NCBI GenBank assembly: GCA_030619925.1
Contig: JAUXAL010000032.1
Span: 1 to 41,145 of the forward strand
Length of the DNA stretch: 41,145 nt
Direction of reading: 5' to 3'
Source: Phycisphaerae bacterium
GTDB taxonomy: Bacteria > Planctomycetota > Phycisphaerae > Sedimentisphaerales > Anaerobacaceae
The position numbers and the translations under genes were made by a program. The notes below the pieces were generated by a model. That model was not told the DNA's origin. It saw nothing but the letters and a program-made list of their open reading frames with translations, and did not search any database. Shown piece by piece: positions 29,325 through 41,145 of the stretch (the stretch's first letter is position 1; each line of letters begins with the position of its first letter).

Positions 29325-31748
29325 CTATTCCTTTGTGCCTTCCTCACGGGGCAGCTTTGCCCGCCATTGCTCGGCCTGTTGCGGCTTGCCCCAGGCCTCG
29401 TAAAGCTCAATAAGGTTGTTCAAAGAGTCCAACGTATGCGGATGCTTCTCGCCCAGTCTTTGTTTTCTGCCTTCGACTGCTTCGAGCAGCAGTCGTTCTG
29501 CCTCATCGTAGCGAGCCTGCTCTTTGTACAGCACAGCCAGGTCGTTCATGGATTCCAGCGTTGCCGGATGGTCCTCACCTAACTTGCGCTTCCTGCCCTC
29601 TAATGCCTTCTTGAACAAAGGCTCCGCTTCATCATAACGCTTCTGCTTTGTAAGCAACACAGCAAAGCCGTTCATGAAGCCGAGGGTTTCGGGGTGTTCT
29701 TCACCCAGTTGGCCGGGTGCAATCTCCAGCATCTCGGTAAATAGGTTCTCCGCCTCCTCGTATCGGTCTTGAGCCGTATATAGGCGTGCAAGGCCGTACA
29801 TAGATTGCAGCGTATGCCGGTGCTTATCGCCCAATACCAGGCGCTTCGTCTCCAATGCCTTGAAAAACAACTGCTCTGCCTCGCTGTAACGCCCTTGGTC
29901 TATATACATATTGGCCAGGTCCTTTGTGTACAGCAGCCTCCCCCAGGAGTCTGCACCCCACTTGGCAGTGGCCAGCGTCTCCACAAAAACCCGCTCTGCC
30001 TCTTCGTAACGTCCCTGGGCCGCGTACACACGGGCAAGATTGCACTTCCAAAAAGGAAGCTGGGGAACGTTCTCCTCCCCCACCTCATGCCGGACTATCT
30101 CTAATATCTTGTCGAGCAACAATTCCGCTTCTTTGTATTTGCCCAGCCACCAGTACGTCACGGCAAGGGCATCCATGGTGAACAGCTGGTCTTCCACACC
30201 ACTAACGCGTTGCCTGATTTGCAGAATCTTGGTCAACAGACGCTCCAAATCGTGATACCGACCCTGGTCCAGGTAAACCCGGCCGAGGCGGAACATAGAC
30301 CGCAGTGTATACCGGTGCTCCTCACCATGCTGCTGTCGATAGATTCGCAGCGCACGCAACAAGTGTTGCTCAGCCTTCGTTGACTCGCCAAGGCTACGGT
30401 ACGTAGAGCCCAGCTTATAGCTAATCGATGCCTCAATGAGTGGCTGGTCCCTGAACTTACCCTCAAGGTTTTTCGAGGCGGCATCGAGAACATAACTGAC
30501 GGTTGCTTCACCGACCCTGGCCTCGCGCACCGAGCCCAGAACATCATTCTCGAGGAAGTCAGCGATGAGCTGCGCCTCTGCACGGGCGCGGGCCTGGCCA
30601 ATGGCCAAGACAGTCGAAACCACGACTCCAGCAATAAGCACAACGAGTACCGCTGCGATGCCGGTAACCAACGCTCGTTTTCGCCGTACGAACTTTTTGA
30701 TTAGGTACATCGTTGACTCGGGCCCGGCTATTAGCGGAGCACCTTTTAAGTAGTTCTGGATGTCATCGGCAAGCTCGGAGGCCGAGCGATAACGGCGTGT
30801 GCGTTCCTTGCGCATAGCTTTGAGAGGAATCCATTCCAATTCCTTGTGCAGACGTTTAGCTAACGTTCCAACCTCGGTACGGCGCCTTTGCGCAATCTTT
30901 GTGGCCTCTTCGCCCAGGCTCGTCAGCCGGGTGCTCGGCGTCCTGGGCTCGGTTTCGCAGATAACCTGCCGGATGTGGTCAACCCCACCTTTACGAAGCT
31001 CCTTTGGGTCAAATGGCAGCGCGCCAATGAGCAGCTCGTAGAGTACTACACCAAGCGAATAAATATCCGAGCGGGTATCAACGTCCTGAGCGGTCGTCTC
31101 GGCCTGCTCTGGACTCATGTACTCAGGTGTCCCGACAAACTGGCCCTGCTCGGTGTACAGTGTCCGCTCGGTCAAAGGCTGGCTGATGGCCTTGGCCACC
31201 CCGAAGTCGATAATCTTTGGCACCGGATTGTTGCCCTCAATGGCCACCAGAATATTCGTTGGCTTGATGTCACGGTGGATGATAGCTTTCTGGTGGGCGT
31301 GCTGGACGGCTTCGCATACCTGCAAGAAGAGTTTAAGGCGTTCTTCGATGCCGAGCTTTTCCCGGTCGCAGTGCCTTGTGAGGGACAGGCCCTTAACGTG
31401 TTCCATTACAAAGTACGGCCGACCCGCATCAGTCATTCCTGCATCGAAGACCTGAGCGATATTGGGGTGGTCCAGCAGGGCCAGGGCCTGACGCTCGGCC
31501 TCGAAGCGGGCGATGACCTGCTTGGTGTCCATGCCCGGCTTGATGACCTTCAGCGCCACACGGCGTTTGACCGGCCCTTGCTGCTCTGCTAAGTAAACCA
31601 CTGCGAAACCGCCTTCGCCCAGGACGCTGAGCAGCTTATAGGGACCTATCTGCCCACCTGGTCCTCCCGCCCCGTTGGCGAAACTGGCGGTGGGAACAGA
31701 TTCACCCTCACCCGGCTGCCTATTCTTTCTTTTTTCAGTCTCGCTCAT
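29325..31748 (-). CDS. Ser/Thr protein kinase with membrane helix and TPR repeats
   Basis: An 807-residue membrane kinase. N-terminal kinase domain (about 36-335): Gly loop GEGGFAVV at 44-51, catalytic Lys K67 in VALKVIKPG, HRDIKPTN with D160, and DFG at 181-183. One membrane helix at about 359-384 (ALVTGIAAVLVVLIAGVVVS) follows. Residues about 440-800 are tandem 42-residue TPR units of kinesin-light-chain type, with recurring YEEAExLFxxxLE and LGEEHPxTLxSMN. The layout, kinase inside and TPR outside, is common in planctomycetes. The ATG at 31746-31748 is preferred; TTG at 31766 and ATG at 31754 are alternatives. Two broken copies of its first codons lie at 35620-36530. Confidence 0.93.
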   Translation of the reverse strand: MSETEKRKNRQPGEGESVPTASFANGAGGPGGQIGPYKLLSVLGEGGFAVVYLAEQQGPVKRRVALKVIKPGMDTKQVIARFEAERQALALLDHPNIAQVFDAGMTDAGRPYFVMEHVKGLSLTRHCDREKLGIEERLKLFLQVCEAVQHAHQKAIIHRDIKPTNILVAIEGNNPVPKIIDFGVAKAISQPLTERTLYTEQGQFVGTPEYMSPEQAETTAQDVDTRSDIYSLGVVLYELLIGALPFDPKELRKGGVDHIRQVICETEPRTPSTRLTSLGEEATKIAQRRRTEVGTLAKRLHKELEWIPLKAMRKERTRRYRSASELADDIQNYLKGAPLIAGPESTMYLIKKFVRRKRALVTGIAAVLVVLIAGVVVSTVLAIGQARARAEAQLIADFLENDVLGSVREARVGEATVSYVLDAASKNLEGKFRDQPLIEASISYKLGSTYRSLGESTKAEQHLLRALRIYRQQHGEEHRYTLRSMFRLGRVYLDQGRYHDLERLLTKILQIRQRVSGVEDQLFTMDALAVTYWWLGKYKEAELLLDKILEIVRHEVGEENVPQLPFWKCNLARVYAAQGRYEEAERVFVETLATAKWGADSWGRLLYTKDLANMYIDQGRYSEAEQLFFKALETKRLVLGDKHRHTLQSMYGLARLYTAQDRYEEAENLFTEMLEIAPGQLGEEHPETLGFMNGFAVLLTKQKRYDEAEPLFKKALEGRKRKLGEDHPATLESMNDLAVLYKEQARYDEAERLLLEAVEGRKQRLGEKHPHTLDSLNNLIELYEAWGKPQQAEQWRAKLPREEGTKE

Positions 31749-32278
31749 CGGCATCCTACTTTCCAACTATACAATACCCAAATCTGCAATTGGCGTCAAT
31801 CGAAAAAACCACCCTGTGAGACCTTTTGGCCAGATACGCCTCACGCTTCATGAGACCTGTCCTCGAGCGAAGCGAAGGATACGAAACCCTGCCCACAAAA
31901 TCCGTCTAACAAGAGTAGAATTCTCTTAGCTTAATTAGTTCCTGTTGCGGAAAACAAAAACTGACGATGTCACCCCTGCGAGGGACCCCGCCTTGCGGGA
32001 ACCCAAAGCAGGGGTCCAGAGCGAAAAAGCTGGATTCCCGCTTCCGCGGGAATGACAAATACTGTTTCCGCAACAGGAACTAACTAAAAGAATTCTACCT
32101 GAGCGCAGCCGAAGGGCCTCGTTCGCACAAACCCGCAAACCTTGTGCGGGCGCAGACAGGAACCCATTCTCCTATCTCCTGGTCTTGTGTCTTGAGTCTT
32201 TACGTGGCGGCTTGCACTCAGGCACGAAGCAGTTGTAATTTCGTTAGTTTTTTCCCGGCGCCCTTACCGTGTTTTCTT
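31749..32278. other. Intergenic region holding a MITE-like element
   Basis: No convincing gene. It contains the inverted-repeat element described separately, GTCCTCGAGCGAAGCGAAGGAT at about 31859-31880 with a related GAGCGCAGCCGAAGGGCCT near 32101-32119, and a short GTCTTGTGTCTTGAGTCTT tract near 32182-32200. Confidence 0.5.
31915..32098. mobile_element. 184-bp MITE-like inverted-repeat element
   Basis: TTAGTTCCTGTTGCGGAAA at 31935-31953 has its perfect complement at 32065-32083. The match continues outward with GTAGAATTCT at 31915-31924 against AGAATTCTAC at 32089-32098, interrupted by a few bases. Inside lie GGGACCCCGCCTTGCGGGAAC and GGATTCCCGCTTCCGCGGGA palindromes and TGTCA/TGACA words. 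No reading frame. The size, long terminal inverted repeats and lack of coding fit a miniature transposable element. Confidence 0.65.
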
Positions 32279-32497
32279 CTATTTGCGTTGTGGGCGAACC
32301 CCTTGGCCTTCTGCCTTGAGTGCTTGGCGTTCACGTTCTACTTGGCGATAAATTTTACAGGCACAATGTCGCATTACCCCCAGCAATATGTCACAGACCT
32401 TGTCATTTTGCAGTGCGTATGAATTGTTGACGAGGCCTATTAAGTCATTGGCTGTCTGTAACGCTTTCAAAATGTGTGCTTTGCTTTGGTTATCCAT
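32279..32497 (-). CDS. Small hypothetical protein (72 aa)
   Basis: I do not recognise the family. It opens MDNQSKAHILKALQTANDL, is mostly helical, has a Cys pair in MRHCACKIYRQ and a very basic, charged C-terminus ending RPQRK. The ATG at 32495-32497 has AAGGAG (plus-strand 32505-32510) exactly 7 nt upstream, which is why I accept it as a real gene and reject the longer frame from 32623. It lies downstream of another small gene on the same strand. A GCCCGCCA/TGGCGGGC hairpin lies between them. Confidence 0.6.
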   Translation of the reverse strand: MDNQSKAHILKALQTANDLIGLVNNSYALQNDKVCDILLGVMRHCACKIYRQVERERQALKAEGQGVRPQRK

Positions 32498-32565
32498 TTT
32501 GTTTCTCCTTATTATCTGCGCATTGGGCTTACATTTAGAGCTTTGATGAAATATGCTCCATCGGG

Positions 32566-32595
32566 AGCAAGCCCGCCATACGTCTGGCGGGCAAG
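32566..32595. repeat. GCCCGCCA hairpin repeat
   Basis: AGCAAGCCCGCCATACGTCT then GGCGGGCAAG, a stem-loop nearly identical to one at about 453-483. Confidence 0.55.
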
Positions 32596-32613
32596 AATCA
32601 ACGTGCTGTGCCG

Positions 32614-32883
32614 TTACGCCCACACATCCAAAAATTGCCCCTGTGCGGCTTCTTCAGCGAATTTATGCCGGCCAAAAGATTTGTCGATATCGGACTTTAC
32701 CTTATCATTCGAATGGGCTGTATTATCAGCGCTTTGCTCATAAGGCTTCAGTTGTACATTCTGTCCTCTAACGGTCTTGGTCAAAGCAGACGGCCTGTTT
32801 GCTCTTTTGGGTTGACCATGCTCAGAAGTTTTATGAGTCAACGGGACTGACCGGATAACTTTGCACTGGATCTTCTTAACCAT
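32614..32883 (-). CDS. Small basic hypothetical protein (89 aa)
   Basis: Unrecognised. It begins MVKKIQCKVIRSVPLTHKTS, is hydrophilic, rich in Lys, Ser and Thr, with no membrane segment, and ends FLDVWA. The ATG at 32881-32883 follows a G-rich GGGGGGTAA that can pair with 16S rRNA, so translation is plausible. It lies about 400 bp behind the sigma54 activator on the same strand, with a 72-aa gene downstream, so the two may form a small operon. Composition is ordinary, with no domain hints. Confidence 0.5.
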   Translation of the reverse strand: MVKKIQCKVIRSVPLTHKTSEHGQPKRANRPSALTKTVRGQNVQLKPYEQSADNTAHSNDKVKSDIDKSFGRHKFAEEAAQGQFLDVWA

Positions 32884-33280
32884 TGTCTTACCCCCCTCAA
32901 GAATCCCCCTATTTGGTTGCCAGGCTGCCCTGGTTTGCTTATCTCACTGACATTAATAAACAACGGGCGTGCCCAACTGCCGAGCGCAGTTGTAGAAAAA
33001 CCGTAAGTCCATGTATAGCAAGCAGATATATTGATAGAATCTTCCGGGGCCGGCCAGAGAATGTCTTACTTCAAAGCTGTTAATGAGACATCAAGAGGTC
33101 GGCTGCAGAAGGTTAGACGAAGCACTTTTGCCGGGAGGGTGTTGTAAGGTCTTATGTATCAAACCGTTATATGTGGATTGGTAGCAGGTCTTCGAGATTG
33201 TGGTGTCTCATTTAGAGTAAATGAGGCGCCATAAGCTATCTGAGACACTTGAAGGCTATTTGAGATACTTGAAGGACAGG
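32884..33280. other. Intergenic region with palindrome and short direct repeat
   Basis: No gene seen. CTCATTTA-GAG-TAAATGAG forms a perfect 8-bp palindrome at about 33208-33226. Behind it, CTATCTGAGACACTTGAAGG and CTATTTGAGATACTTGAAGG are tandem imperfect 20-nt direct repeats (about 33236-33276). ATGAGACA also occurs near 33084. I found no sigma54 -24/-12 pair here. Confidence 0.45.
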
Positions 33281-35080
33281 TTATCGGACTGCGGGCTCGC
33301 TTGTTCTTTCACTGTCTTTGAGGAATCGATACAGGGTGGCCCGCGAAACGCCAAGCCTCAGTGCGGTCTCGACTTTATTGCCGCCGGTTTCATCCAGAGT
33401 GCGCCACACGGTCTCGGCATCAAGCTTGCGTTTTCGCTGTTTCTTTGGGTAGCTGTGTCTCGGCGCGTATGTCATAAGAATCTTCGAGGGTAAATATTCA
33501 GGCAGCAGCAGGTTATCTCTACATTTTATCAGCGCATATTTAAGAGCGTTTTCAAGCTCTCGAACATTTCCAGGCCAGTCATAATCCATCATAACACCGA
33601 CAGTTTCTGGTGATAGAATAACATCTTCTCGGTCCATCTCTTTCAGGGCCCTCTTCAGGAGGTTCTCGGCCAGTAGTGGGATATCGTTTCGCCGTTCACG
33701 CAACGGCGGCAGATATACGGGAACCACGCACAATCTGTAGAAAAGGTCCTCCCGGAATCTTCCTGCTGCAACTTCTTCCGCGAGATTTTTATTCGTTGCA
33801 CTGATGACCCGTATATCAACTTTTATGCTCTCCTCTCCGCCCACGCGCTGAAAAGTCCCTTCCTGCAGAACCCGCAGGAGCTTGACCTGCGTCGCACCGG
33901 GGAGCTCTCCGATTTCATCCAGAAAGATTGTTCCTCCATCTGCCAGTTCGAAACGCCCTTTCCTGTCACCAACAGCTCCGGTAAAAGCCCCCTTAACATG
34001 TCCGAACAGCTCACTTTCCAGGACCCCCTCGGGCAGTGCCCCGCAGTTGACAGCAACGAAAGGCTTATCGGCCAGGGGGCCTTCATTGTGAATAGCTGCG
34101 GCAACAAGCTCTTTACCTGTGCCGCTTTCGCCCTGAATTAGCACAGGGATATTGACCTCGGCAACCTCCCTGATGGTGTCAAACAATTCCAGCATCTTTG
34201 CATTGCGGCCCACGATCCCGGCAAACGACTGCTCCGTTTTCAACCGCCGACGCAGGTGGGACAGTTCAGCGGTGTCCATTTCCAGCTTCTTTTTGGTTGC
34301 CCTGAGGATGTCTGTTTGGGATATAATCCCGCACGGCCGTTTGTCCTCCGTAACAACCAGTCGGCGGATACCCATTTTCTCCATAATCCTGCTGCTGCTG
34401 AACACCGAGTAATCGGCCGACACGCTCGCCACGGGAGTAGACATCACCTCGGCCATCGTAATCTGGTCAGGGCTCTTTTGCGGCGCCACAACTCTTGCCA
34501 GAAGGTCTCTTTCCGTGACAATACCCACCACCTCGTCTCCCTCCAGCACTACGATGCACGATATTTTGCGGCTGGTCATAATTTCCGCCGCTTCCACTAT
34601 ACTCGCGTTGCTCTGCACTCCAGCCACATCCCTGCTCATTATCTCCTCTACATCCTTCCACCTGCCGTAGAATGTCACAACTTGAACCAGGTCTGTTTGT
34701 GTTACAATTCCGACCAGCTGTTTCTTCTCCAGGATTGGCAGTCGCTTGATATGCTTGTCCTCCATAATTCTGATGGCATCAAACACGGACAAATCAGGGG
34801 ATATAGTCTCTACCGGAGAAGACATTATTTCCCTTACCTTTATCCTATCGAAATCCTTCTCCCTGACCGCAACCCTTTTGAGGAAGTCCGTCTCGGTAAG
34901 GATACCTGCCACACTGCCATTGTCCTCAACGACGACGCACGAAACGTTATTCTCAGACATAATCTTCGCCGCTGAAGCTACCGTTTCATTCGAGCAAATG
35001 GTAACCACATCCTCCCTCATCACGTCGACTACTGCCAGCGGAACCCATAACGAGCCTGTCAGATTATTGAAAACACCCAT
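33281..35080 (-). CDS. Sigma54-dependent transcription activator with four CBS domains
   Basis: A 599-residue regulator. Four CBS motifs lie at about 17-70, 80-135, 143-197 and 208-262, each with the VxVVEDxxxVxGIxTETDxL pattern. A short coiled coil (263-283) links them to a AAA+ domain (288-515): Walker A GESGTGKE at 317-324, the sigma54-contact loop GAFTGA at 364-369, and Walker [12 protein letters not shown] near 382-392. The C-terminal Fis-type helix-turn-helix is in [25 protein letters not shown] pairs usually sense adenine nucleotides, so this activator may read energy charge or a second messenger (inference). Its targets are unknown. Dispersed repeat copy B lies 67 bp upstream. Confidence 0.93.
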
Positions 35081-35760: not shown

Positions 35761-36039
35761 TCCGTCAACGTTGAAAAACCCGCCTCTGGAGGGTCGACTG
35801 AGACAATAATCAATAACTCAAACTGACCGGTTTTAAGCTGTCATGCTGAGCCCTTCGCTGTGCTCAAGGATAAACTCCGCGAAGCATCTGGCCTTAGTAA
35901 AGAATAATCGCATCATACCGACAGGGGGCCCTCAAACGCATTCTTTCGCGTTTGGGGAACCCCAGTGAGATTCTTCTGGTCAGGATCAAGCCATACCTCG
36001 CACTGCAAGGTAGAGCACGTTGTATTATATAATCACTAA

Positions 36040-36069
36040 GTAGCAATACAAGGTACCTTGCATTGCTAC
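36040..36069. repeat. 30-bp near-perfect palindrome
   Basis: GTAGCAATACAAGGT faces ACCTTGCATTGCTAC, with 14 of 15 positions complementary and no loop. Related CTGCAAGGTA words occur at 36002 and 36335. Confidence 0.6.
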
Positions 36070-36451
36070 ATAGCGCTAAAACTCTCGCAACGATTGTACA
36101 AGCTTTTCAATAGGCCAATTTTCCGTGCGTCGTCGTTAGATATGGCTATGATACGTTGTGGCCAAAATTATCATCCACACATTACCCAAAACTGGTAGTC
36201 CGTTTGCGAGCATACCGAGCCCAGCCGAACGGCCTATCCTGACCAGCGTTCTGAGCTTGCCTCCACTGAGCTTTGTCGAAGTGCCGAATGATCTGTTTTC
36301 AATCCTCCGGCCGAAATATCAAGTCATACTTCGCCCTGCAAGGTATAGAATATTATGCTCTGATCTGCCGTCGGTCTTCTGTCGTCTGCCTTCTGTTTTC
36401 TGCCCTCTGTCTTCTTTCGTCAGTCTTCGGTCTTGAGTCTTGAGTCTTCAC

Positions 36452-36643: not shown

Positions 36644-38530
36644 TTACGACATCTGGTCTGTATTCACCTCCTCTAATTCAACTCCAGCCTGAGACAGTAA
36701 ATCATATAATGGTCTAATCGTGTCTATCGTTTGGCTTTGGCATCTCCCAAAACGGTCAGGTCTCGACAAAGATGCCGTGAGTACAACCCTCTCCTTTGCT
36801 CTTGAGAAGGCAACAAAGAAGCCGCAAGTTTCCTCGTCAGGATTGTTGTTGTATCCCCATAGGGCTTGATCCTCCAGTCCAATGAATACGACAGTATGGA
36901 ATTCCAATCCCTTACTTTTATGTAGAGTCATCATTGGAATTGAGTCGTGCCCTTCAAAATCAAATATAGCATCCTTCCAATTCATCGTGGCAAGGCGATC
37001 ACAAAGCTCCCTAGCAAGTGAATTCATGAGGTCATCATAATATGTGCCCTGTCGGTACTGTTGAAAAAAGTTTCGAATTGTGTCATTCCCCAAGAAACCT
37101 GTCACGACTTCTAGTCTCGCTTCCACCGACTCAACCGTCCATGCTTCTGTGTTTTCCATAGCTTGACGACTCTCGGTTAAAAAGACGCCCAGACTATCTT
37201 CAATTTCGCCACAGGCATCCTCATCAGCATTACTCGTTCTTAACAGAAAATCAGTCACCTTGCTCCAGTCAGCGGGTGATTTCTTCAGCACTATCAATCT
37301 TAGCATTGAAATCAACAGACTCGTAATAGGCTCAGCCAATAAGTCCTGCAATTCAGATTCGATTCTTGCCTTTATTCCAGACTGCCTTAATTTGTCTATC
37401 AACTTGTCTACATATCTGTTGGGTGTTTGTCGGACTAAGATACAGACTTCTCGACATGGAATCTCATTCTCACTGATCCATTCTGAAATTGTGTGACTCA
37501 GATATTCAGCCTCCGCATTATCGTCGGAGAAGAGCAGGGCACGACACACTTCAGTGGAATCACTACTGGATACTCTCGAAACACTTCGTCGGATACCAGG
37601 TGATAATGCTTGTGAAATGGAATGTTGTATCTGTACAAGTTCCGGCACAGAACGATAGTTGCTTATGAGATGCTTTGGAATAGCTGCGAAATCATCAATG
37701 AATAGATTAAAAGCATCACGAACTGCACCTGCCCAAATCATTATTCGCTGCTTATCGTCACCAACAGCAGTCATAATTGTCTGGCTTCCCTTAAAACACA
37801 CAGAAGTCAAATCGTACTGTATTTGAGTGGTATCCTGAAACTCATCAAGGAAAGCATATACGTAGGTAGATCTGATTGCTTGGACCAGTAAAGGATTACA
37901 GTGCAGAATGTATCCAGCAAGACGCCCTATCATAGTAAATATGACTCTCGAAGGAGATAAGCCTTTTAACAGGTAACCCCACACGGACAACGCGGCATGA
38001 TTGTTCAAACTGCAAAGCGGGGTACTTGTTAGATAATCTCGTGCAAATGTCCTGGCGTTGAACTGCTGGATTTGGGCATGCGTGTAGTCTGCCCTACCTA
38101 AGGCTGTTTCAAGGATGCTTTGCATCTGATTTTGACGATTGATTGTGAAGTCTATTTGGTAGTCTTCAGATGGCTGCCAGTTTGCGGGAAGTCCCAGCCG
38201 GAATCTATCAAGTAAAGTCTTGGAAAAGGCATCAAAAGTCATGGAATCGAATCGTCTTGCAATTTCATTTCCACATCTTAGTTCAACACGATCTTTTAGA
38301 TTACGAGCCGCATCTCTCTTGAAACTAATGGCAAGGATTCGCTTAGGAGGAGGGCATAGCCCTGTCTGCAATAAGAAACACGCTCTCTGTGCAAGCAGCT
38401 CTGTCTTTCCCGCCCCAGGTCCAGCAGTAATGAGCACGTTGTTCTCCACTTCTCTAACAGCTTCATCTGCCGCAACCTCAAGGCTGTCTACTCCTATAGG
38501 TGCCCAATTGTCTGGGGAAATCCTTATCAT
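36644..38530 (-). CDS. gajB: GajB-like UvrD/PcrA-family helicase of a Gabija-type system
   Basis: A 628-residue superfamily 1 DNA helicase. Walker A GPGAGKT at 37-43 in LITAGPGAGKTELLAQRA, motif II DEFQDT at 229-234, motif III GDDKQRIMIWAGA from 257, motif IV SNYRSVPELVQ near 290, motif V MTLHKSKGLEFHTVVFIG and motif VI FFVAFSRAKERVVLT are all intact, so ATPase activity is expected. Its ATG overlaps the stop of the upstream OLD-type nuclease gene by 4 nt (ATGA, 38527-38530), giving tight coupling. That pair is the layout of Gabija anti-phage systems. It is somewhat longer than the roughly 500 residues of the first described GajB. Confidence 0.88.
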   Translation of the reverse strand: MIRISPDNWAPIGVDSLEVAADEAVREVENNVLITAGPGAGKTELLAQRACFLLQTGLCPPPKRILAISFKRDAARNLKDRVELRCGNEIARRFDSMTFDAFSKTLLDRFRLGLPANWQPSEDYQIDFTINRQNQMQSILETALGRADYTHAQIQQFNARTFARDYLTSTPLCSLNNHAALSVWGYLLKGLSPSRVIFTMIGRLAGYILHCNPLLVQAIRSTYVYAFLDEFQDTTQIQYDLTSVCFKGSQTIMTAVGDDKQRIMIWAGAVRDAFNLFIDDFAAIPKHLISNYRSVPELVQIQHSISQALSPGIRRSVSRVSSSDSTEVCRALLFSDDNAEAEYLSHTISEWISENEIPCREVCILVRQTPNRYVDKLIDKLRQSGIKARIESELQDLLAEPITSLLISMLRLIVLKKSPADWSKVTDFLLRTSNADEDACGEIEDSLGVFLTESRQAMENTEAWTVESVEARLEVVTGFLGNDTIRNFFQQYRQGTYYDDLMNSLARELCDRLATMNWKDAIFDFEGHDSIPMMTLHKSKGLEFHTVVFIGLEDQALWGYNNNPDEETCGFFVAFSRAKERVVLTASLSRPDRFGRCQSQTIDTIRPLYDLLSQAGVELEEVNTDQMS

Positions 38531-40530
38531 TCATTCCCAGCCTGTAATTTACTAACGATATCTTTCAGTACTTGCGGGCTATTGTCATGAAGCTCCTGGA
38601 CACTTACCTCTATAATCATTCTCAAATGTGAAACGGGCTTACTTCGCCCAAGGAAAAGATATCTGTACCAGAAGTATAGCTCTGGCCGTCTAATCTTTGA
38701 CATAACCCGCGTGATATCTCCTGCATCCTTCTTGATGACAGAAGCATAAGCACCCCTCAGGGCTTTGTAATCGTTCTCTGAGTAATCCGAAGGGATGTTC
38801 GGGCCCAAAGCCCCCTCTTGCGGCTTCATGTAGATGCCGGGGAAAGCTTTGAGCATCATAAAATCAAAATCAATTGGGTAGCTGAAATACACGTTATATT
38901 CTTTGAAGTCCTTGATCCATTCCTTTTCTGTTTCAACATTTGGTTCCCAAGTATGCATTGCTTCGAGTTCGTCGCGATTTAGGACCGAACCATTTTCTAA
39001 TGATAGGAGGTCTTTTCTTGAAATACCATTCTTGAGCAATTGCTTACACACATATTTAATTCTTGCCCACCCTCCCGTCTCACGCCGTCTGTCATAGTCC
39101 AATAGCGTCACATGTGGGATTCCAAGCTGTGTAAGCAATCGCCAGAAATGGTTTACATGTCTACCACCCAGCGGGACTATAGAAATGAAATTCTCGTCAG
39201 TTGGTAGCCCATTAGCATCGAAGATTCGGGGCAAGACAATTTCTTCGCTGTCTCCCTCGCACAGGACTACATGCTTGGCAAAGTAAAGCTCAGGGTATGC
39301 CTGTACCGCATTTCGAACGTACTTGTATGCTTCGTCCGTCTCATCAGGCAAAACAATATTCTTAGGTATAGCGTGAAGGTTGGCATCAAGTCTTAAATGC
39401 CTGATTTCTTCCGGATATATTCTTTTGAGCACAGAAGCTGAATGGCTTGTTAGCACTGTTTGTGCCTCAGGCCTCTCCGAGATATCCCTAAATATTCTTG
39501 TGATTCTACCAAGATAATGAGGGGCAAGGTGGTTTTCCGGTTCTTCAACGGCAAAGACTGTCAAATGGGGTATATTCAAGTGCTCACCTGAAATCCCTTG
39601 CGTGTGAGTAAGATGGCTGACTACCTGGTTCTCAATACAGAAGACACTATGTATCATTGAAAGATAGAACAATGACCGCATTCCTTCGCTCAATCGGGTC
39701 ACGTCGTGCTCGTTTCCTTCGGGGGACGGTGAAAAGAAGACGTCCAACATTGATACGGCCTTCCTAAAATCACTACTTAATGGACTAATGGTAACGTTTT
39801 TATATATATCAGTTCCGCAAAATTTCTCCCATTGTTCGGATAGGGTTTGCTGTATCAGGCCTACGCTGGTCTCGCCCTGAAAGGCTGCCTTGAATTGTTC
39901 TGTCAAAGTCTGGTATAGCTCTTTTGTTGGGTTAGACCACTCGATTGCTCTTATCAAGCGATGCATAATGGTCCCAGCGGTGTACTTTATCTGTGTCAAT
40001 GGATCTCTGATTGCAGGGACGTAATGGACATGTATTCTTGAGCGTTGATATGCACTGACTTTTACTTTATGTGCATCTTCAATCTCACTACTCGCTGTGG
40101 TAATCCAGTTTATGTCTGTATCAATGTCACCTTCAGATGTGATCCCCTGTGACCATTTTGCATCAAGACGTACCCTACAATATGGAGCCGCCCCAGGTGC
40201 TTCAATAGTCATCTGCTTGAATGACTCTGGAACCGCCATAAGTTGCAGTGCTTCATTAGAGAGCAACTCAGGAAAGATCAATTTTGCTTCAATACAGAGA
40301 GAACGTTCTGTCTCATCCTCAAATTTTTGTCCGGCCGGAATATGAAAATCCGAAGACTTGATTGCACGGTCAGATTGAGTTAGCCCAAACAGCTTCACCA
40401 ATGCATGCAAGATCGCGGATTTGCCGCTGCCGTTATGACCAACAAAACACGTAAGGTCATTGAGTTCAACAACCGTTGGCTCCGGACCAAAACAACGAAA
40501 TCCTGAAATACTTATTGATGCAAGCTTCAA
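38527..40530 (-). CDS. gajA: GajA-like OLD-family ATPase-TOPRIM nuclease of a Gabija-type system
   Basis: A 667-residue protein. ABC-type ATPase half: Walker A GHNGSGKS at 31-38, signature RLSEGMRS near 279-286, Walker B TVFAVEEPENHLAP near 324-336, and H-loop LTSHSAS near 360-366. TOPRIM half: VVLCEGDSEEIVLPRIF (421-437) with the metal-binding Glu425, and VTLLDYDRRR with Asp478/Asp480. OLD-family nucleases next to a UvrD-like helicase are the class 2 OLD or Gabija arrangement, where GajA nicks DNA when cellular nucleotides fall. The start is TTG at 40528-40530, with AAGGAGGG (40538-40545) 7 nt upstream. By eye the gene is less GC-rich than the core genes, fitting horizontal transfer. Confidence 0.88.
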   Translation of the reverse strand: MKLASISISGFRCFGPEPTVVELNDLTCFVGHNGSGKSAILHALVKLFGLTQSDRAIKSSDFHIPAGQKFEDETERSLCIEAKLIFPELLSNEALQLMAVPESFKQMTIEAPGAAPYCRVRLDAKWSQGITSEGDIDTDINWITTASSEIEDAHKVKVSAYQRSRIHVHYVPAIRDPLTQIKYTAGTIMHRLIRAIEWSNPTKELYQTLTEQFKAAFQGETSVGLIQQTLSEQWEKFCGTDIYKNVTISPLSSDFRKAVSMLDVFFSPSPEGNEHDVTRLSEGMRSLFYLSMIHSVFCIENQVVSHLTHTQGISGEHLNIPHLTVFAVEEPENHLAPHYLGRITRIFRDISERPEAQTVLTSHSASVLKRIYPEEIRHLRLDANLHAIPKNIVLPDETDEAYKYVRNAVQAYPELYFAKHVVLCEGDSEEIVLPRIFDANGLPTDENFISIVPLGGRHVNHFWRLLTQLGIPHVTLLDYDRRRETGGWARIKYVCKQLLKNGISRKDLLSLENGSVLNRDELEAMHTWEPNVETEKEWIKDFKEYNVYFSYPIDFDFMMLKAFPGIYMKPQEGALGPNIPSDYSENDYKALRGAYASVIKKDAGDITRVMSKIRRPELYFWYRYLFLGRSKPVSHLRMIIEVSVQELHDNSPQVLKDIVSKLQAGNE

Positions 40531-40556
40531 TGTGCATCCCTCCTTATTTTTGAATT

Positions 40557-40718
40557 CTACTGCGTTACATGCCCATATGTATTAGGTATTACTCTTTCAG
40601 TTAGTCGCCTTGACAGTCCCAAGTCGAGAAATATCTTCTCAATAAGATTGATCCCCTTTTGACCCATTACCTTACTGAGAGGCAAGGTTTTCTTCTTTAT
40701 GTGACGTTTTTTGCTCAT
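40557..40718 (-). pseudogene. Truncated ORF (53 aa) resembling the start of a DUF4365 protein
   Basis: Frame ATG 40716-40718 to stop 40557-40559, ending 26 bp before the gajA start on the same strand. It begins MSKKRHIKKKTLPLSKVMGQ and continues KGINLIEKIFLDLG. The stretch GQKGINLIEKIFLDLG looks like the first helix of DUF4365/restriction-like proteins, which usually run on to an Asp-Gly-x-Ile-Glu nuclease motif; here the frame turns into unrelated residues (about 37-53) and ends. I take it as a broken relative, from memory of the family. No strong ribosome binding site. Alternatively it is a genuine small leader gene of the defence operon. Confidence 0.4.
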
Positions 40719-41145
40719 CCTATAATCCAACCATACAGCATAACATCAATAAATCTGCTCATCTCTCATTCTCCGTCCCCCGTCCTTGTGTAACAGGGCA
40801 ATCAACGGCTTTTCCCAATATCTCTGATATGCAGTATACCACACGCCCAGACTCGCCGCCAAGTAAAGATTAGGTCAATTGCGAGCTGTCGGATGTCTCT
40901 TTGATTTCACTTGATTTCAAACCTGTTTTATGGTATAATGTATCGAATTATGAATGGTTCATAGTTCGTTGTTCGTAGACAACAGACTTCAGACTTCAGG
41001 GGGTGTTCCCAATGGCAGCCGAAGTTGTTCTTTTTTCAGAACCCCGTTTATGGGTGTCGAAACTTGTATCGAAGCTGGAAACTGGTAACTGGATACACGA
41101 AAAAACAAGCTTCAAGCTTCTACAGCAAGTATCGTTACGAGCATC
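40719..41145. other. Gene-free right end with degenerate repeats
   Basis: No gene on either strand that I can support. It contains CTCATTCTCCGTCCCCCGTC-type words near 40755-40785 and a GAATGGTTCATAGTTCGTTG / CAGACTTCAGACTTCAGGG tract at about 40950-41001, styles similar to the other degenerate tracts of the window. The sequence upstream of the truncated ORF should hold the gajAB promoter, but I see no convincing -35/-10 pair. Confidence 0.4.

Follow-up and report, generated by a model that had tools for sequence, protein, structure and literature searches.

The window, which is the whole 41,145-nt stretch of DNA analysed, is the complete contig 53 of a 4.0-Mb genome that comprises 141 contigs and is rated 92.8% complete. 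Near one end lie two intact, overlapping genes in the same orientation, evident from both the ORF listing and the bases themselves. The first, gajA (38527..40530, minus strand), starts with TTG and encodes a 667-residue OLD-family protein (class 2) that combines an ABC ATPase with a TOPRIM nuclease; the second, gajB (36644..38530, minus strand), starts with ATG and encodes a 628-residue SF1A helicase resembling UvrD, Rep and PcrA. The two genes share 4 nt, ATGA (38527..38530, minus strand), where gajA stops and gajB starts, and the reading frames and this junction confirm the overlapping pair described in the first-pass annotation. Relatives start at the same residue in the alignment, which supports the TTG start, and a likely ribosome-binding site, AAGGAGG (40539..40545, minus strand), is located 8 nt before the TTG. 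The 615 bases between gajA and the contig end contain a small ORF of 53 codons (40557-40718, minus strand) that gave no Pfam hit at E 0.001 and is perhaps a gene remnant. No Rfam match at the gathering threshold and no tRNA gene was found across the window. In a Pfam scan of nine of the larger remaining ORFs, most look housekeeping-like, one has no match, and none of those with matches is defence-like. Together, the Rfam, tRNA and Pfam searches (the last covering the upstream ORF and these nine) revealed no third gene or RNA belonging to the gajA–gajB system.

We compared both products with the PADLOC profiles, a search that the first-pass annotation had proposed. The gajA product best matched the GajA model PDLC00090 (796.5 bits, profile positions 1-651 of 659) and the gajB product the GajB model PDLC00103 (707.6 bits, positions 3-608 of 612), and these scores exclude a chance origin of the pair. 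Among other models, the gajA product scored 79.4 bits with the class 1 model Old and 78.7 bits with AriA, and the top model shown outside GajB for the gajB product was RTasHel (PDLC03802, listed under DRT; 217.9 bits). All 14 members of the relative alignments also matched the PADLOC models (E up to 1e-100 for GajA and up to 1e-60 for GajB); the sister models PDLC00097 and PDLC00144 likewise matched all 14, with the best single scores. Pfam identified AAA_15 and OLD-like_TOPRIM in GajA, which has the OLD-type layout of an N-terminal ABC ATPase and a C-terminal TOPRIM domain, and UvrD-helicase and UvrD_C in GajB. The predicted GajA structure matches solved GajA end to end, and the predicted GajB structure matches solved GajB best in subdomains 1A and 1B. 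The identification as Gabija made in the first-pass annotation is supported by the family models, the conserved gene pairing, the structures and the careful tree described below and, judged by its profile matches, the pair is part of a branch that PADLOC already models. The RTasHel model was matched at E up to 1e-60 by nine of the 14 GajB alignment members, the window protein included, which hints at an exchange of helicases between Gabija and reverse-transcriptase defence systems.

A GajB-like gene adjoins GajA in all 32 relatives examined. Fifteen of these loci were inspected in genomes and plasmids (two named genomes, seven plasmids and six further genomes) and each has a GajB relative beside GajA, as do all 17 of the remaining loci, which derive from a viral collection; an eighth plasmid, from Latilactobacillus sakei, carries an annotated helicase beside its GajA relative. 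The two genes stay together in plasmids, genomes and viral-collection contigs alike. When start codons were taken nearest to the aligned start, the gajA/gajB junctions of 15 relatives varied between a gap of 31 nt and an overlap of 14 nt; only six of the 15 show the 4-nt overlap, which had been put forward as a hallmark of Gabija and does not hold as one. The nearest relative inspected is 44% (GajA) and 47% (GajB) identical to the window pair. Distribution is patchy, both in the phylum (six of 392 genomes at E up to 1e-60) and among near relatives (two of 61 genomes at E up to 1e-20), with the source genome counted each time. Plasmid records with a match at E up to 1e-20 number 55, of which 46 cover at least 80% of the query and all are less than 60% identical, and six annotated phage records have matches, three of them covering more than 80% of the query. 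Other annotated defence genes were present in five of the eight plasmid regions inspected and were less clear in the other three. On the Roseomonas plasmid pOT10-1 (L014:7986-10810), an IS5-family transposase gene separates two parts of the GajB relative, and one further locus (L022) ends at a contig boundary.

We next examined individual residues in 31 pairs, that of the window and those of 30 relatives, a set that omits L014 and L022 and includes some near-duplicate rows. G31, G36, K37, G283, S286, E329, E330 and H363 of GajA were invariant, as was its TOPRIM set of E425, E429, G455, D478, D480, D554, D556 and K631. GajB carries the Walker A motif GPGAGKT and a DEXQD box in the form DEFQD; its G41, K42, D229-E-F-Q-D233, Q261, R293, H537, K540, G541 and R577 were invariant in all 31 pairs, and the motif-I threonine T43 was kept in 30. 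The ATPase, TOPRIM and helicase motifs had been called intact, and this conservation bears that out. For BcGajA, the accessible text of two papers gives E379, E383, G409, D432, D434, D511 and K541 as active-site positions (PMC10781630, PMC10822852). HMMER alignments match the first six to E425, E429, G455, D478, D480 and D554 of the window protein, all identical; from its invariance and its C-terminal helical position, beyond the aligned part, we infer that K631 is the counterpart of K541. The same kind of alignment pairs D556, an aspartate in 31 of 31 pairs, with residue 513 of BcGajA, and the match rests on it, as the C-terminal metal-B motif is not reliably alignable across OLD rows. Residue 513 is a glutamate in the printed chain, whereas the accessible text names D513 (PMC10781630 / PMC10822852). 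D556 seems to be equivalent to E508 of BpOLD, a residue described in the accessible text as absolutely conserved in class 2 (PMC6755086), and this difference may make it a small marker of the branch.

The deeper position of GajA was studied in trees of 53 rows: the window, 22 of the 32 subfamily relatives, 27 of 30 OLD–TOPRIM loci (the window's own locus, one subfamily locus already included and one fragment were left out), phage P2 Old, BcGajA and TsOLD. In a quick tree, the window fell among helicase-linked rows and deep nodes were weakly supported (80-86); AU tests on the same rows rejected neither a single helicase-linked clade (p 0.116) nor a branch joined to the class 1 group of TsOLD (p 0.259). 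For a careful tree, five rows flagged as long in the quick tree were dropped (L128, L130, L148 and L149, plus the helicase-linked L143). This tree split 12 rows from 36 at 99/97, with a program warning of long branches meeting at the clade of the window. On the 12-row side are rows without a detected helicase, including TsOLD and P2 Old; on the 36-row side are the window branch, BcGajA, the remaining helicase-linked rows and three rows (L136, L137 and L139) for which no helicase was detected within the flank of about 1.5 kb. The first-pass annotation had named a grouping of GajA with class 1 OLD proteins as one result that would speak against Gabija: the careful tree, with those five rows dropped, groups it with BcGajA instead, and the AU tests are not decisive.

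Both proteins were noted at the outset as longer than those of the first described pair, which is true relative to BcGajA and BcGajB, but they are not enlarged for their branch, in which GajA measures 634-698 and GajB 548-643 residues (31 pairs). These similar lengths and those of the PADLOC models (659 and 612 positions) rule out a special enlargement of the window pair, and component length is no peculiarity of this genome because the branch is widespread and already in PADLOC. The suggestion of a divergent subtype with extra regions stands only in part, as regards sequence distance from BcGajAB and the extra GajB segment described here. GajB falls into two size groups, of 618-643 (14 of 31) and 548-561 residues (17 of 31). 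In the 22 of 31 proteins in which a script matched both motifs, the spacing from Walker A to DEFQD is 182-195 residues in the long form (n=12) and 126-129 in the short (n=10), while DEFQD and the KGLE motif are 302-317 residues apart in every one of the 31. About 59 extra residues, found only in the long-helicase group, bring the long form to UvrD-like size. Alignment, motif spacing and predicted helices locate them at residues ~129-187 in the window protein (37970..38146, minus strand), in subdomain 1B by comparison with UvrD-type helicases; the helices are predicted at 133-144, 151-164 and 175-190, with pLDDT averages of 62-87 over ten-residue stretches.

In the careful tree, the ten GajA rows with a short helicase group as a single clade (98/99); the quick tree unites the thirteen long-helicase rows (99). 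A single change could lie behind both sizes, whichever tree is taken. A genome of the same order (L023) has the short-helicase form of the pair; the occurrence of both forms in related hosts is expected under horizontal transfer. According to the accessible parts of two reports, the 1B subdomain of BcGajB spans 84 residues (73-156) and contributes to contacts with GajA (PMC10822852, PMC10781630). Since 1B takes part in these contacts, the extra helices could change the docking of GajB on GajA.

GC content over the pair (0.42-0.45 in 1-kb segments) is lower than in segments within 30000-34999 (0.48-0.57), in line with acquisition from elsewhere. The 600 bases upstream (40546-41145) are multi-copy, with 49 matches in the same genome, and the 1.5-kb downstream flank contains dispersed repeats, with 54 (self-matches counted in both). 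The contig probably ends where it does because of dispersed repeats, a likely cause of assembly breaks. Copies of 40546-41145 were observed at the ends of other contigs, for example C104, C133, C115 and C37. A near-perfect palindrome of 38 nt (36036-36073, arms 92% complementary) lies within an element of 205-257 bases at ~35975-36231 that has four more copies of 89-91% identity on the other contigs C100, C128, C45 and C4; this element resembles a dispersed palindromic repeat of small size. The genome had also been called planctomycete-like, for which SBP_bac_10, a family typical of planctomycetes, offers a weak test: 21 matches, mostly weak, in the source genome against none in 14 control genomes.

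We are highly confident that the locus is an entire Gabija operon (class 2 OLD), whose branch is widespread and has a GajB of full, UvrD-like size; it was probably acquired horizontally. Three other explanations were weighed. The pair might have arisen separately from BcGajAB, by an OLD nuclease recruiting its own UvrD-type helicase, so that its likeness to Gabija would be convergent. Consistent with this, a profile of the branch scores TsOLD (87.6 bits) above BcGajA (62.6 bits), the helicase profile gives UvrD 181 bits and BcGajB a far lower 78 bits, RTasHel is the best of the non-GajB models shown, and the AU test tolerates a branch joined to class 1. The careful tree, less its five long rows, nevertheless unites the branch with BcGajA and the helicase-linked rows at 99/97, and all seven active-site positions of BcGajA have counterparts (six identical, the lysine matched by inference rather than alignment), and we regard a separate origin as unlikely.

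A chromosomal pair serving DNA repair is more improbable again: UvrD-like proteins do act in repair and most of the nine other ORFs scanned are housekeeping-like, but patchy presence, carriage on plasmids and viral contigs, defence-gene neighbours and a GC content below that of the surroundings all argue against it. That a class 1 OLD nuclease merely came to lie beside an unrelated helicase by chance has similarity to TsOLD as its sole point and is hardly credible given the helicase adjacency in 32 of 32 relatives and the correlated divergence of GajA and GajB. Class 1 proteins are, in the accessible text, by definition without a helicase partner (PMC6755086), and window gajA does not show their trait of a single isolated gene.

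The pair is best read as a Gabija nuclease–helicase that would attack incoming linear DNA. By analogy with characterised Gabija systems, GajA would oligomerise through its ATPase domain, onto which GajB would dock; a GajA tetramer with docked GajB is described for other Gabija systems in the accessible text of PMC10781630. The contact residues known from the 4:4 GajA–GajB complex do not align confidently with the window proteins. GajB would bind and move along DNA that has an exposed end or single strand, and its ATP turnover would free GajA, a putative two-metal TOPRIM nuclease (E425, E429, D478, D480, D554, D556 and K631), to nick or cut phage or plasmid DNA as it enters. Excerpts of one study state that Gabija targets DNA ends that RecBCD does not hold (PMC12407980). 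BcGajB is reported to lack helicase or unwinding activity, and the accessible part of a review asks whether this is general (PMC10568477). Long GajB is closer to UvrD and may be a true translocase or helicase, unlike BcGajB. Less probably, the long-helicase branch as a whole may be mechanistically distinct from BcGajAB, with a full-size 1B, a GajB that truly translocates or unwinds, extra helices that remake the docking on GajA and metal-B residues in a D-x-D pair; a separate pairing of an OLD nuclease with a UvrD-type helicase is even conceivable. In the literature searched, mostly without subscription papers, we found no study that singles out the long-component branch and no experimental test of the widespread long-helicase form. 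The window adds an intact member to this Gabija branch and is otherwise an ordinary find; with a GajB of UvrD-like size, the branch is a natural place to ask whether the missing helicase activity is general.

Among known systems, the PADLOC clusters PDLC00090 and PDLC00103 are closest, with near full-length matches and similar lengths, and we found nothing that distinguishes the window pair from them. Gabija of Bacillus cereus VD045 (BcGajA/BcGajB; PDB 8sm3, 8tjy and 8x5i) is a weak pairwise match (GajA E 5e-8). Its PDB chains measure 578 (BcGajA) and 493-499 residues (BcGajB); window GajA is ~90 and GajB ~130 residues longer, with D556 in place of E513 and a 1B that exceeds the 84 residues stated for BcGajB in the accessible text (PMC10822852). 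The class 2 OLD proteins BpOLD and XccOLD (PDB 6nk8 and 6njv) represent, in the accessible text, the same helicase-linked class as the window pair, with the two-metal TOPRIM residues E400, E404, D455, D457 and K562; their metal-B residues T506 and E508, both called absolutely conserved, seem to match D554 and D556 by pattern rather than by firm alignment (PMC6755086). The class 1 proteins TsOLD (6p74) and phage P2 Old fall on the opposite side of the careful tree from window GajA. Window GajB falls far short of the curated cut-offs for the UvrD, PcrA and Rep models and differs from those helicases in being paired with GajA.
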